64,000 bases of DNA, from the NCBI GenBank assembly GCA_020063565.1, contig JAICDB010000004.1, forward strand, positions 62,001 to 126,000, written 5' to 3'. The notes beneath the pieces are model-generated. The model was not told where the DNA came from and did no database searches. It was given only the letters and a program-made list of their open reading frames with translations. A program made the position numbers and the translations under genes. The stretch comes from Clostridiales bacterium (lineage in GTDB: Bacteria > Bacillota > DSM-16504 > Desulfitibacterales > JAICDB01). This document shows, in pieces, positions 5,949-21,908 of the stretch (position 1 is its first letter; every line of letters starts with the position of its first letter).

Positions 5949-6040
5949 GATCTGTTTTGTCAAAATTTGCAGACTTTTGGATAATCAAGGAAGGAATTTA
6001 CTAATATTAAACGAATTTAATTTATAAAATATAGCTTGAA

Positions 6041-6117
6041 AGGGCAAACCATTCCGAAAGGGTGGGACGCAAAGCCATGGGTCTAAAGCATAAAGCTATG
6101 ATTGCCAGGCTGCCGTT
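6041..6117 (+). promoter_or_regulatory. cyclic-di-GMP-I (GEMM) riboswitch aptamer
   Basis: The sequence shows the hallmark GEMM-I blocks in order: AGGGCAAACC at 6041-6050, a hairpin closed by a GAAA-containing loop (6049-6066), GGGACGCAAAGCC at about 6064-6076, and the distal GCCAGG block at 6104-6109. These match the class I c-di-GMP aptamer. It sits in the 5' leader of cheW-cheA-cheB, about 220 bases before the cheW start, so c-di-GMP would tune chemotaxis expression. The gap 5949-6332 contains no gene. Confidence 0.93.
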
Positions 6118-6332: not shown

Positions 6333-6839
6333 ATGAGAGAAGAAAAAGCCGTCCAAAAGCAAGAAGAACAATTAGTGGTATTCCAACTGGGAAGTGAAAC
6401 ATACGGAGTAGATATTGCTATCGTTAGAGAGATTATTCGCATGCAATCAATCACTCCGGTTCCGCGTACACCTGATTTTGTAGAAGGGGTTATCAATTTA
6501 AGGGGCAGGGTTATTCCTGTAATTGACCTTCACAAGCGCTTTGAATTACCTTGTGGAGATGAGACAAATGATACCCGGATAATAGTTGTTGAAGTGGGAG
6601 AAATAACTGTAGGTATGATAGTTGATTCTGTTTCAGAAGTATTGAGAATTGCATCTGAAAGTATCGATCCTCCACCACCTGTCATATCTTCTGGCGTTAA
6701 TACTGCATACTTGCGGGGCGTTGGAAAACTGGAGGATCGTCTGATTATTTTACTGGATTTACAAAAGATTTTACATGAAGAGGAACACAAGGAACTGGAA
6801 GAATCATTGAAACAGGTGGTCGCAACCGAAGAAGAATAG
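6333..6839 (+). CDS. cheW: chemotaxis coupling protein CheW
   Basis: A 168-residue CheW-domain protein with the typical block LGSETYGVDIAIVREIIR near residues 19-36 and GVINLRGRVIPVIDL near 52-66. It links chemoreceptors to the CheA kinase at the membrane-associated arrays. RBS AGGAGG lies 8 bases before the ATG. The C-terminal tail is somewhat longer than the shortest CheW proteins and is rich in Glu. It is first in a cheW-cheA-cheB operon behind the c-di-GMP riboswitch. Confidence 0.95.
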   Translation: MREEKAVQKQEEQLVVFQLGSETYGVDIAIVREIIRMQSITPVPRTPDFVEGVINLRGRVIPVIDLHKRFELPCGDETNDTRIIVVEVGEITVGMIVDSVSEVLRIASESIDPPPPVISSGVNTAYLRGVGKLEDRLIILLDLQKILHEEEHKELEESLKQVVATEEE

Positions 6840-17522: not shown

Positions 17523-19402
17523 ATGATTATTAATCACAACATTGCTGCTTTAAACACTTACCGTCAGTTGACCAGTGTCAACAACATGACTAGCAAGTCG
17601 CTGGAAAAGCTGTCGTCGGGGTATCGTATCAACCGCGCAGGTGACGATGCTGCAGGTCTAGCTATCTCCGAAAAGATGAGAGGCCAGATTCGCGGTTTGG
17701 AAATGGCGTCTAAGAATGCGCAGGATGGCATTTCATTGATCCAAACTGCTGAAGGTGCGTTAAATGAAACACACAGCATTCTCCAGCGCATGCGGGAGTT
17801 AGCAGTTCAGTCTGCAAGTGACACCAACACGGAAGCCGACCGTAAGGAACTTCAAAAGGAAGTAGATCAGCTGGCCAGCGAGCTCAGCCGTATCAGCAAC
17901 AACACCGAGTTTAACACAAAAAATCTATTGGGCGGAGCATTTGAAGGAACCTTCCAAATTGGTGCTAATGAAAACCAGAATCTAGAATTGAGCATTAATG
18001 CTATGGATGCATTTACACTTGGGTTAACTGAGAATGTGGCTTCCGTTAGCGCTAGGAACATTTCAAATAATTCTGGAAACGCAGGTGGAAATCTCCAAGG
18101 TGCTGATTTGGCAGATAATCAATATTTGATAGAAGGCACCTATACTGTAGAAGTAACTCAAAATGGTAGCAATGTTGATATTAAGTTAAAGGATTCCGAC
18201 GGGAATGTAGTTGCTTCAAAAATTAACTGGACTGCGGCAGCAGGGGAGGTTACATTGGATACTGTTGGAGATGGTAGTGGAACAAGTGTTATTACTCTTT
18301 CATATGCCTCTGCTACTGCCGCTGGAGACTCCGCTACTCTTGAAATTGGTGCCAATGGTGCAGACTTAGATGAGAGTCAAGCTGCTGGTAATACTGGTAC
18401 GGTTGCAGCCGTTGAAATGAGCGCAACTAATTTATTGGATAAAGGTTCTTACACAATAACTGCAAAATCTGACGGGACTACTGTAGATATTTTGGAATTA
18501 AGGGATTCAAATGGAAATTTATTAGGAAGTTATGATAACTCCGATACTGCACTTGCAGCAAATACAAATTATACAATAGCCTTAGCAGATGGTTCTGGAT
18601 CTGTTACAATTACTACAGGTGGTGTCGCAGCAGCGGATGGTGACGTGTTTTCCTTTACAGTTGTTCAATCCGATTATAAATCCGGAGCATCTAGCGCAGC
18701 TGTAGATTCAGATGGAAACGGTGTATTGGATAAAGAGGCTTATGTAGCAAAGGGCATTGACATCCGTACACAAGCAAATGCCGACGCAGCCATTACCAAG
18801 ATAAATAAGGCCATAGAAGTGGTCTCTGCCGAGCGCTCCAAGTTGGGTGCCTACCAAAACCGTCTGGAACATACTATCAACAACCTGGGGACATCCGCTG
18901 AAAACTTAACGGCAGCTGAATCCCGAATCCGTGACGTTGATTATGCCGAAGCTGCTTAAAGCTGAAGCACAGTCGTCCTAACTGGAAACGGTTGGGAGTA
19001 TCATCGGGTGAATTGCTGGAAACCCCTTAGAGCCTCCCGCCCGACAACGTGACCCGAAAGGGTGGGCGTGAGCGGTCAAAAAGCCGGGAGGATTGGGCAA
19101 TCAGCAGCCGAGCCCCTGTATCGAAAGGTTGGGGAAGGTTCAACGACTAGGGCATACCACCTAAAGCGAAAAGCCACGGTGATGAAGTCCGTAGGGCACC
19201 GTAAGGTGTTCGAAGTACCCGACCCCTAACAGGTAATGCTGAGGGTGAAGATATAGTCTGGTCTGAATGGAAACATTCAGTGGCGACGATGGCCAAAGAA
19301 ATGATGGCATTCACCAAGAATAACATCATCAGCCAGGCAGCAACAAGTATGTTGGCGCAGGCAAATCAGATGCCACAGCAGGTACTATCTCTGCTCAGAT
19401 AA
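17523..19402 (+). CDS. hag: flagellin, gene interrupted by a group I intron (exons 17523-18941 and 19289-19402)
   Basis: Exon 1 encodes the N-terminal D0/D1 region ([36 protein letters not shown]), a long variable region with two similar beta-rich modules, and the start of the C-terminal helix to SRIRDVD. An in-frame TAA at 18957-18959 lies in the intron. Exon 2 restores the missing end, [12 protein letters not shown] to QQVLSLLR. Joining after GAT (18941) and before ATG (19289) keeps frame and gives the family sequence RDVDMAKEMM. The spliced protein has 510 residues. Without splicing the C-terminal D0 helix would be missing and filaments should not form. The exact junction is inferred from protein alignment and the U/G rule. 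Confidence 0.88.
18942..19288 (+). ncRNA. group I self-splicing intron in the flagellin gene
   Basis: About 347 bases, more GC-rich than the surrounding exons. Group I core elements are visible. GGGCAATCAGCAGCCGAGCC at 19095-19114 resembles the P4-J4/5-P6 region. GACTA at 19145-19149 pairs with TAGTC at 19254-19258 (P7), the latter inside the typical GAAGATATAGTC. A P9 hairpin CTGAATG-GAAA-CATTCAG is at 19263-19280. The predicted 5' exon ends in U and the intron ends in G. P1 pairing with GTCGTC at 18972-18977 is weak, so the junction may shift. It contains no open frame. Group I introns in flagellin genes are known from thermophilic bacilli. Confidence 0.88.
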
Positions 19403-19415
19403 TTATAAAAGTACT

Positions 19416-19447
19416 AGCGACCTCAGAAAGTTTTGGGGTCGCTTTTG
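19416..19447 (+). terminator. intrinsic terminator after flagellin
   Basis: AGCGACC at 19416-19422 pairs with GGTCGCT at 19437-19443, extended inward by a few pairs, then TTTT. It lies 13 bases past the flagellin stop. Confidence 0.85.
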
Positions 19448-19549: not shown

Positions 19550-20479
19550 ATGAATTTTAGTTCAATTTTTGCAGGTAAAATGCTTGGTGATGCTTATTTA
19601 AACTGTTCACATAGTGCAGTTCGTTTTGCTTTTATTCATGCATTAAAAGATAAAGACTATGCAGAGCATTCCTATAATCTTTTTGCAAAGTTCTTGCCAT
19701 TTAACTCAAATGGTATTAAGGTGGAGCATATTTATGACAAAAGAACGAATAAAACTTATTCGAGAGTTTTTTGTCAATCTAGAACTTCCCCCTTACTAAA
19801 TGAAATGTATTCAATGTGGTACAGAAAAAATAGGAAAGTTATTCCTAAGGATTGGTTAGAGAAAAGTTTGACCTCGGAAGGATTGGCCATATGGTTTCAG
19901 GATGATGGTTGTTTAAAGAATAATGGGAATAGAATTATTTTATCTACCGAGTCATTTACTGAGGAAGAAAAAGACTTTCTTCTTAAAGTAATGAAGAAAA
20001 AGTTTCTTATTAATGCTTCAATTGATACCCAAGGGAGAATAGATATTTCTCGTTCTAGGGAAGTTCGAAAGTTTCAAGCGTTAGTTGAACCCTACATACA
20101 TAAAAGTATGAAAAGAAAAAGTATCAATAACAGGTGGCAACATTGGGAAAAAGAATGGAGAGAAGTTAGTCATTCGAAAAAGGGTATATGTAGAACCTCT
20201 ATTTATCTTCCTGATCAATTTTATCACTCTTTAAAAGGAAAAGAATATTCTAATATTCTTAACAATCTATTGGATAAATGGCTGGATAAAGAATGGAATG
20301 AAAATTTATTAAATCCTGATAAAAGATATTTATGGTTGTTAAATCATGATGGTGTACAAAAAGGGTCTAATTTACTGACTCCTCGCTTTGAGCGAGATAT
20401 TAAGAAAAGATTAGATATTATTGCGGAAGTAACAGGTTTTGAACGATCGGAGTTAGTAATAATGGCACTTAAAGAATAA
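19550..20479 (+). CDS. LAGLIDADG-family homing endonuclease
   Basis: A 309-residue protein with two LAGLIDADG-type helices: FAGKMLGDAYL (residues 7-17, acidic Asp14) and LAIWFQDDGCL (112-122, Asp118/119). These give one active site pair on a single chain. The C-terminal 100 residues are Lys/Arg-rich and may add DNA contacts. It has its own start with GGGAAGTG upstream and lies beyond the flagellin terminator, not inside the intron. It may be the former mobility enzyme of that intron, or an independent mobile gene. Codon use is more AT-rich than in the flagellar genes. Confidence 0.85.
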   Translation: MNFSSIFAGKMLGDAYLNCSHSAVRFAFIHALKDKDYAEHSYNLFAKFLPFNSNGIKVEHIYDKRTNKTYSRVFCQSRTSPLLNEMYSMWYRKNRKVIPKDWLEKSLTSEGLAIWFQDDGCLKNNGNRIILSTESFTEEEKDFLLKVMKKKFLINASIDTQGRIDISRSREVRKFQALVEPYIHKSMKRKSINNRWQHWEKEWREVSHSKKGICRTSIYLPDQFYHSLKGKEYSNILNNLLDKWLDKEWNENLLNPDKRYLWLLNHDGVQKGSNLLTPRFERDIKKRLDIIAEVTGFERSELVIMALKE

Positions 20480-20519: not shown

Positions 20520-20930
20520 AGAGTTTTTCGGGGGACAGTGCGCCACGAAGGCGAAGGGCTATCTGATGGTCCGAAAGCTATGCTTAGCCGAAGATGAGGG
20601 AAGGCCCTTCGGAGCCGCCATACAGGTGGAGGCTCCAAGGGCGTAGGTGCCAGGCACCTAACTTATTATGCTCAGGGAAATGCGGGAACTGGCCGAGCGC
20701 GCCAGGGACAACGACCTGACCCAAGCGGAAGCGCGGGAAGTCAACGCCAGGCTGCAGGAATTGGAGAAAGAAGTCAGAGCCCTGGACGCAGGGAGCAGGG
20801 GGTTTTGGATGGACTGCTTTTGCTCGCCAACAAAAGATGTTTCGGGAGTGATCGCCGTGCGGGAGCGGCAGAACTAGCAGAAGGGTATCCTCAGCCTCGA
20901 GTTGAGGGCGGAACTGGAAAGTATAAAATA
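20520..20930 (+). other. GC-rich structured island of unknown nature, with a flagellin-like relic
   Basis: No clear gene lies between 20480 and 21024. The first 140 bases form nested inverted repeats: CGAAGGGC (20552-20559) with GCCCTTCG (20604-20611), GCTA/TAGC (20577-20588), GGAGCC (20611-20616) with GGCTCC (20631-20636), and AGGTGCC/GGCACCT (20645-20659). A short frame at 20668-20877 reads MLREMRELAERARDNDL, similar to the flagellin helix [10 protein letters not shown], but ends after 69 residues. GC content is far above that of the flanks. This suggests acquired or degraded DNA, possibly with a structured RNA. Confidence 0.4.
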
Positions 20931-20986: not shown

Positions 20987-21024
20987 ATTAGAGATGATAC
21001 TATTACTTAAAAAAGGTGATCTTT

Positions 21025-21462
21025 ATGCAGTATTTAAATAATAAGCACATAACAAGCAAGTTATTTAGTAAAGAATTTGCAGACTTCTGTGTGAATAATG
21101 AAATAAGGCTGGCTGTGCTCTTTGGTTCGCAAGTTTCAGGTGAAACCAGAGAAGACAGCGATTTTGATATAGCAATTTTAATAGACAAAAGCAGTTATCC
21201 TCAAGCAAGTATTGAAATAGGGAAATTAAAACGCAAGCTAATTAGAGAGTTGTCTTTATTTTTTGAAACGTCCAAAATAGATTTGGTGCTTTTAAACCGG
21301 GCTTCACCACTTTTAAAATTTCAAGTTGCACGTACGGGTAAAGTAATTTATCAAAAAAATCGTAGTGAATTTGCTGATTTTGCATCGTTATCTTTACGCC
21401 AACATATAGATGCAAGGTTGTTTTACCAGTTGGATGAAATCTATTTAAAAAATAATATATGA
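21025..21462 (+). CDS. mntA: MNT-domain nucleotidyltransferase antitoxin (MntA-like)
   Basis: A 145-residue protein with the minimal nucleotidyltransferase signature GSx10DxD: Gly34-Ser35 in LFGSQVSGE, then Asp46 and Asp48 in SDFDIAIL. A third acidic residue is in KIDLVLL. MntA proteins add AMP to a tyrosine of the partner HEPN toxin and so silence it. The ATG at 21025 follows AAAAAAGGTG. The partner gene begins 17 bases after the stop. Confidence 0.85.
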   Translation: MQYLNNKHITSKLFSKEFADFCVNNEIRLAVLFGSQVSGETREDSDFDIAILIDKSSYPQASIEIGKLKRKLIRELSLFFETSKIDLVLLNRASPLLKFQVARTGKVIYQKNRSEFADFASLSLRQHIDARLFYQLDEIYLKNNI

Positions 21463-21479
21463 TTTGACGGAGGCAGATA

Positions 21480-21908
21480 ATGGTCAATAAAGCGGTTGTG
21501 CAGAGAAAATTGAAAAAACTAAAAGAATATCTCAAAGAATTAGCGACATTTGAGGAGCTTACATGGGAAGAATACCTTGAAAACTTTCAACACCGGCGTA
21601 CAGTAGAGAGGTTGATACAGCTTATTGTAGATACTGCAGTTGATATAAATTCCCATGCGGTGGTTGATGCAGGAAACCCTCCGCCATGTGACAATTTTAA
21701 TTCTTTTATTGAAGCTGCTAAACTAGGCATGTTTCCCTTAGAATTCGCCAGAAAGATTGCTCCTTCAACTGGAGAGAGAAATATTATAGTTCATGAATAT
21801 GAACAGATCGATGATGCTTTAGTATACAATAGTATCAAAGAAGGGTTATCTATGTATAGGCAGTATCTGGAGTATCTTCTTGACTTTGTTGAAAATTATC
21901 CTGAATAA
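21480..21908 (+). CDS. hepT: HEPN-domain ribonuclease toxin (HepT-like, DUF86)
   Basis: A 142-residue helical HEPN protein with the catalytic Rx4HxY motif at Arg100-His105-Tyr107 (ERNIIVHEY). In the HepT-MntA systems the tyrosine of this motif is the AMPylation target. The RBS GGAGG lies just before the ATG. With mntA it forms a toxin-antitoxin module inserted between the flagellin region and the main fla/che operon. An RNA target cannot be told from the sequence. Confidence 0.87.
   Translation: MVNKAVVQRKLKKLKEYLKELATFEELTWEEYLENFQHRRTVERLIQLIVDTAVDINSHAVVDAGNPPPCDNFNSFIEAAKLGMFPLEFARKIAPSTGERNIIVHEYEQIDDALVYNSIKEGLSMYRQYLEYLLDFVENYPE

Follow-up and report, generated by a model that had tools for sequence, protein, structure and literature searches.

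A group I intron in a Clostridiales flagellin gene encodes a putative SsrA-like tail and adjoins a free-standing LAGLIDADG endonuclease gene

Here we describe a group I intron that interrupts a flagellin gene of a Clostridiales bacterium (GenBank assembly GCA_020063565.1, contig JAICDB010000004.1, positions 62,001 to 126,000), studied within a stretch of 64,000 nucleotides (nt), hereafter the window, whose coordinates are used throughout. The intron (18942-19288, forward strand, 347 nt) holds no endonuclease open reading frame (ORF), it begins with a few codons that would give an unspliced flagellin an Ala-Ala end, and a gene for a free-standing LAGLIDADG homing endonuclease lies just downstream. 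What appears to be new here is that a bacterial self-splicing intron opens with a selected, coded Ala-Ala tail and has a free-standing homing endonuclease linked to it. A joint explanation, which on balance we favour, is that of a flagellin intron that carries an Ala-Ala degron tail and spreads by collaborative homing through the downstream endonuclease.

According to this proposal, splicing would yield the full-length flagellin (473 + 37 codons), and a ribosome arriving at the junction ahead of splicing would translate five intron codons and stop, releasing a flagellin with YAEAA at its end and without the C-terminal D0 helix. This end would most likely mimic either the host SsrA tag, added through transfer-messenger RNA (tmRNA), or an alanine tail, and so mark a useless or poisonous fragment for destruction by ClpXP or a comparable protease. 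The probable target of the downstream LAGLIDADG enzyme would be a place close to the insertion point in flagellin alleles that lack the intron, and the intron and the endonuclease gene would be copied together as the cut is repaired. The identity and boundaries of the intron, its conservation at the RNA level, that of the Ala-Ala-stop end at the protein level and the endonuclease linkage were computed; splicing, degradation and the cleavage site are what we infer from them.

A group I intron interrupts the flagellin gene

The flagellin reading frame (17523-18959) encodes 478 amino acids and, as an initial annotation of this DNA had claimed, stops early, after RDVDYAEAA. Its first 473 codons make up the 5' exon (17523-18941, forward strand), which ends in AESRIRDVD and matches both PF00669 and PF00700. 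The lost end of the Flagellin_C domain, 37 residues corresponding to PF00700 profile positions 51-86 (E = 4.5e-11), is encoded in the 3' exon (19289-19402, forward strand), from the ATG at 19289 to a stop codon at 19402. The annotation had placed these residues about 350 bases on and in frame; they are indeed found there, but the intron length of 347 nt is no multiple of three and the 3' exon therefore comes into frame only after splicing. Removal of the intron creates the junction RDVD/MAKEM within an uninterrupted Flagellin_C domain, and intronless relatives show the identical junction.

The search with the Rfam group I model that had been proposed as a check returned a full-length match to RF00028 (model positions 1-253) at 18970-19280, with 82.6 bits (E = 1.7e-19) against a gathering score of 50 bits. 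The match takes in GAAGATATAGTC, which the annotation had singled out as the group I core, and through it the conserved catalytic core (P3-P9, with the guanosine site in P7) is accounted for. The boundaries that it had given are exact, being set by flagellin homology together with the terminal U of the exon and the terminal G of the intron: the last base of the 5' exon, U18941, forms a U.G pair with G18972 in P1, and the final base of the intron is G19288. Read directly from the sequence, the exonic 5' strand of P1 (GUUGAU) lies at 18936-18941 and its 3' strand, the internal guide sequence (GUCGUC), at 18972-18977, both on the forward strand. A P10 pairing was sought by eye in the intron and none was found.

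When one genome of each species was scanned for the intron 3' core beside the MAKEM exon, the same intron appeared at the identical codon boundary in about 43 species, among them members of Anoxybacillus, Aeribacillus, Oceanobacillus, Ornithinibacillus, Paucisalibacillus, Salirhabdus, Sporosarcina and Savagea, as well as the uncultured Bacillota genome UBA2598. Extra searches in two families brought the total to 61 distinct intron copies, all of which contain the guide motif GTYGTCC. Compensatory changes in 42 of the 87 predicted pairs, counted over 16 related sequences, indicate that the RNA fold is maintained across relatives. With the Rfam match, the homology-set splice junctions, the shared site in many Bacillota and this covariation, the annotated group I intron in the flagellin gene is a real one as judged from sequence, and would be expected to splice. 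No further group I intron match was present anywhere in the genome.

The interrupted gene is the sole flagellin detected in the assembly, which is about 81% complete, so that a second copy could be missed; a third PF00700 match in the genome, in an ORF resembling the hook-associated protein FlgL, is the only other flagellin-family C-terminus. As the intron interrupts the only flagellin detected, motility would very likely need splicing. A broken genomic frame in the sole flagellin could also mean that the intron is dead and the gene a pseudogene. We considered this reading and rejected it as very improbable: both exons are intact and conserved, so are the ribozyme core and the junction bases, the pairings covary across relatives, and a complete flagellar and chemotaxis region surrounds the gene.

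The Ala-Ala end of the intron frame is conserved as protein

When the exon frame was read into the intron, a stop codon was reached after 5 or 6 codons in every one of the 61 copies, and the resulting C-terminus was Ala-Ala-stop in 59 and Val-Ala-stop in 2. In the window this in-frame tag, our proposed SsrA-like C-degron, occupies 18942-18959 on the forward strand (TAT GCC GAA GCT GCT TAA, that is, YAEAA-stop) and could be translated from unspliced mRNA only. Other tag peptides included YALAA, YDLAAA, YDLAA, YVLSAA, YVIAA, YSFAA, YDLIAA, HTEAA, HVQAA and similar ones. Other group I introns from the same bacterial family end in SLCQ, QGGSR or APTGK before their stop, with no Ala-Ala.

Codon changes were then counted by the Fitch method on a tree built from the remaining intron sequence of the 61 copies. 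The last Ala codon had changed 0, 0 and 23 times at its first, second and third positions, every change being silent, and the stop codon 0, 0 and 8 times, through TAA/TAG exchanges only. The penultimate codon showed 0, 2 and 12 changes, and the adjoining third-last codon 11, 16 and 14, about evenly spread over its positions. The contrast had a Fisher p of 5e-10. Since the last codon tolerates silent changes only and the third-last codon changes at all positions, we consider it highly probable that the Ala-Ala end is under coding selection, a constraint at the 5' end of the intron that the initial annotation, right about the intron itself, had missed.

A more ordinary reading of these codons is that the early stop merely keeps ribosomes off the ribozyme core, a reason that the literature, as recounted in PMC3984707, gives for early in-frame stops in group I introns, and that the Ala-Ala codons are a by-product of a P1-extension hairpin (GCNGC/GCNGY) with no role as protein. 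Alignment positions 13-16 do pair with positions 25-28, and the penultimate codon lies mostly within this stem, so that RNA structure accounts for part of its conservation, which tells against a purely protein-level constraint. Yet changes on both sides of the stem are confined to the silent position (column 15), and in the last Ala codon the first position is unpaired (p < 0.3) in 20 of the 61 copies and the second in 26. In about a third of the copies, the window included, this codon thus falls in the loop, and it is nevertheless always GC at these two positions, which makes the hairpin alone insufficient. Gain or loss of codons in the tag never breaks the frame, whereas the part of the loop past the stop varies freely, with nine different lengths. 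A second flagellin intron, described below, is moreover under another kind of protein-level selection. Taken together, these observations leave the by-product reading improbable.

The tag as a putative SsrA-like degron

SsrA tags commonly end in LAA and are recognised by ClpXP (PMC9382460), which in B. subtilis also recognises alanine tails (PMC8138137; PMC8012679). The tmRNA tag of the window genome is GKENYALAA, with which YAEAA shares 4 of 5 residues, and clpX was found in the same genome. The tags of all 20 other host tmRNAs, predicted with ARAGORN, end in AA. In Anoxybacillus hosts the intron tag YALAA accompanies the tmRNA tag GKENYALAA, and in Paucisalibacillus and Ornithinibacillus YDLAAA accompanies GKENNYSLAAA. 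We therefore lean towards the view that the tail is an SsrA-like degron that would clear flagellin truncated by failed splicing.

Several points weigh against this view. The third-last residue of the window tag is Glu and not hydrophobic, in most relatives being Leu, Ala, Ile, Val or Phe, and with Glu in place of the usual Leu of LAA recognition of the window tag may be weaker. The likeness of intron tags to host tmRNA tags may come from shared ancestry. In Sporosarcina, Cerasibacillus, Tenuibacillus and Savagea the two tags match only at the final AA. The length of the Ala run agrees between the two in Anoxybacillus, Paucisalibacillus and Ornithinibacillus but not in O. luteolus or Terribacillus, so that a tight match in Ala-run length is suggestive only.

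SsrA tags and the alanine tails made by RqcH likewise place a C-terminal Ala-Ala, read by ClpXP in bacteria, on truncated proteins; they are added in trans, whereas the tail described here is genetically encoded in the intron. A parallel is offered by yeast HAC1, in which translation into the start of the unspliced intron is described as adding ten residues that contain a degron (Di Santo et al. 2016, in the account given in PMC6627864). In both cases the 5' end of an unspliced intron would encode a short C-terminal tail that marks the product for destruction, as proposed here for the flagellin. According to that account, Ire1 and tRNA ligase process HAC1, and Duh1 and the proteasome read its degron; the window instead combines an SsrA-like end with a bacterial ribozyme. 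The literature searchable, which took in few subscription journals and neither of the Hayakawa papers cited below, yielded no report of an SsrA-like tag encoded by an intron. In bacterial protein genes that are highly expressed, transcripts are translated while they splice, which raises the question of how group I introns persist there. If the proposal is right, a coded degron at the intron start would be a direct answer, rendering failed splicing harmless at the protein level; it would be a bacterial counterpart of the HAC1 degron and a route to finding other introns with protein-level safeguards.

A second intron in Bacillales flagellin genes

Many Bacillales flagellin genes (loci L010, L017, L036, L121, L162 and others) contain another ORF-less group I intron about 110 nt downstream of the first insertion site, near ...MLAQ/ANQQPQGVLQLLR; the window is without it. 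In 27 of 29 copies the 5' end of this second intron encodes a substitute flagellin C-terminus, for example SNQMPQGVLQLLR followed by a stop (...GVLQLL[RQ]-stop), although 13-24 of about 50 nucleotides are not those of the true exon. Because this 5' end duplicates the C-terminus, a complete flagellin could be made even from unspliced mRNA. One Oceanobacillus copy (L007) ends in FEQIAA instead. The second intron supports protein-level selection within introns, as far as sequence comparison can tell. From both introns we draw, as a rather probable generalisation, that bacterial self-splicing introns can encode an SsrA or alanine-tail mimic directed against the unspliced product, that a sister intron copies the missing end, and that both solutions are selected as protein.

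Distribution and precedents

The intron copies measure 357-386 nt, except those of UBA2598 (locus L126, also L053; 355 nt) and of the window (347 nt). Identity to the window intron is 86% for the UBA2598 copy and 69-78% for all others. No close relative was found in phage or plasmid records, where the best matches span at most 45% of the intron (the core) at about 70-76% identity. Six pattern matches (L006, L015, L018, L023, L024 and L046) were dropped as chance matches or as not being flagellin introns. A weak group I intron match (L003, G003:C148) was seen in a genome from the same order, where it sits at the end of a contig and, as far as this short contig extends, outside any flagellin gene.

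The earliest account of flagellin genes interrupted by group I introns concerns Geobacillus and other thermophilic Bacillus (Hayakawa and Ishizuka 2009, 2012, as cited in PMC3984707 and PMC4853749), a precedent that the initial annotation did not mention. Flagellin group I introns are thus already known, and the window adds one more member of that kind. The introns of Geobacillus stearothermophilus and thermophilic Bacillus are probably the same element as that of the window, because in relatives from the Anoxybacillus family it has exactly the same insertion site. Unlike those cases, the window host belongs to another, sparsely sampled lineage, and the passages on that work in PMC3984707 and PMC4853749 make no mention of an Ala-Ala tag or of a linked endonuclease gene.

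In thermophilic Bacillus, splicing of the flagellin introns has been described as temperature-dependent (Hayakawa and Ishizuka 2012, as cited in PMC4853749). The intron could accordingly be a temperature switch, spliced when warm so that flagellin is made only then, with the tag clearing the product in the cold; such switching would be sharpened by the tag. The same intron is, however, also present in Sporosarcina, Oceanobacillus and Salirhabdus, which are not generally regarded as thermophiles, and we consider the switch conceivable but unlikely.

A linked LAGLIDADG endonuclease and collaborative homing

The free-standing endonuclease gene, likewise missed by the initial annotation, lies at 19550-20479 on the forward strand and begins 148 bases past the flagellin stop codon. 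It is an intact frame of 309 amino acids with a C-terminal extension and matches PF03161 (E = 4.4e-32). The protein has two LAGLIDADG motifs with acidic residues (D14, D118 and D119, invariant in A1). Its structural model reached a mean predicted local distance difference test (pLDDT) score of 89, and the nearest folds in the PDB were I-WcaI and I-SceI (template modelling score, normalised by target, 0.73), with which it would share the monomeric two-motif fold. Unlike these enzymes, it is encoded by a free-standing bacterial gene and has an extra C-terminal region of about 100 amino acids. This region, absent from I-SceI, is predicted to form two strand-helix-helix units that resemble ribbon-helix-helix domains.

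A peptide-pattern search of genome contigs for the endonuclease returned nothing, relatives surfacing only from the neighbourhoods of intron loci. In Bacillales, homologues follow the interrupted flagellin and are encoded on the opposite strand; in UBA2598 the homologue downstream of it shares its strand and has a broken frame. Among the 21 intron copies with at least 2.5 kilobases (kb) of sequence read, 16 have an endonuclease within 3.5 kb downstream, both endonuclease types being counted. A profile search matched 17 of 161 genomes of one family, and in 13 of these 17 the endonuclease lies beside a flagellin with the first intron, six of the 13 having been missed by the intron pattern. The remaining four comprise one copy beside an intronless flagellin, a broken copy near fliD, one without resolved context and one that matches weakly, at a B12-dependent ribonucleotide reductase-like gene.

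Several flagellin genes that contain the second intron are followed by members of another LAGLIDADG family, the second (LTPVQQNILIASIIGDGEITK...), at L121, L122, L012, L049 and L116; L121 and L122 have the second intron only, accompanied by this family. The pattern suggests that each intron may have its own endonuclease partner.

An ORF-less intron beside a free-standing endonuclease gene, with the linkage recurring across genomes, points to collaborative homing, which we regard as probable, cleavage of the target being presumed. Some intron copies without an endonuclease nearby speak against it, as does locus L168, where an intronless flagellin (RDID/MAKEM) is followed by a partial endonuclease gene of the type linked to the first intron, at a contig end; L168 is possibly a resistant allele or a case of intron loss. 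One could instead regard the downstream gene as an unrelated selfish gene that reached the intergenic space by intronless homing and plays no part in moving the intron, given that it stands outside the intron, beyond the likely terminator, and in the opposite orientation in Bacillales relatives. The linkage of this endonuclease family to the first intron across genomes and the tendency of the second family to adjoin the second intron, including the two loci with only that intron, make such an independent origin doubtful.

Collaborative homing is known from F-CphI and the psbA intron of cyanophage S-PM2 (PMC6083498; Zeng et al. 2009), where an intron devoid of an endonuclease likewise sits in a gene beside which a free-standing endonuclease is encoded. 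The candidate described here instead pairs a LAGLIDADG enzyme with an intron in a chromosomal gene of bacteria, and it spans many genera. If correct, it would take collaborative homing from phages to such a gene.

Neighbouring features

The terminator referred to above is a likely intrinsic one for the flagellin transcript, at 19417-19446 on the forward strand (GCGACC...GGGGTCGC followed by a T-rich run), read by eye and not scored by a tool. Just past the endonuclease gene, at 20596-20651, there is a short match to the group II intron model D1-D4-2 (37.2 bits, cut-off 36), probably a remnant. Between the endonuclease and an FlhB-like gene lies a pair of MNT-like nucleotidyltransferase and HepT-like genes of the toxin-antitoxin type (21016-21908), and the flagellar region of UBA2598 has a nucleotidyltransferase-like ORF and other small ORFs. 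Elsewhere in the flagellar and chemotaxis region of the window, a cyclic di-GMP (c-di-GMP-I) riboswitch was identified at 6033-6117 (74.9 bits), upstream of a cheW-cheA-cheB-like run that starts at 6333.
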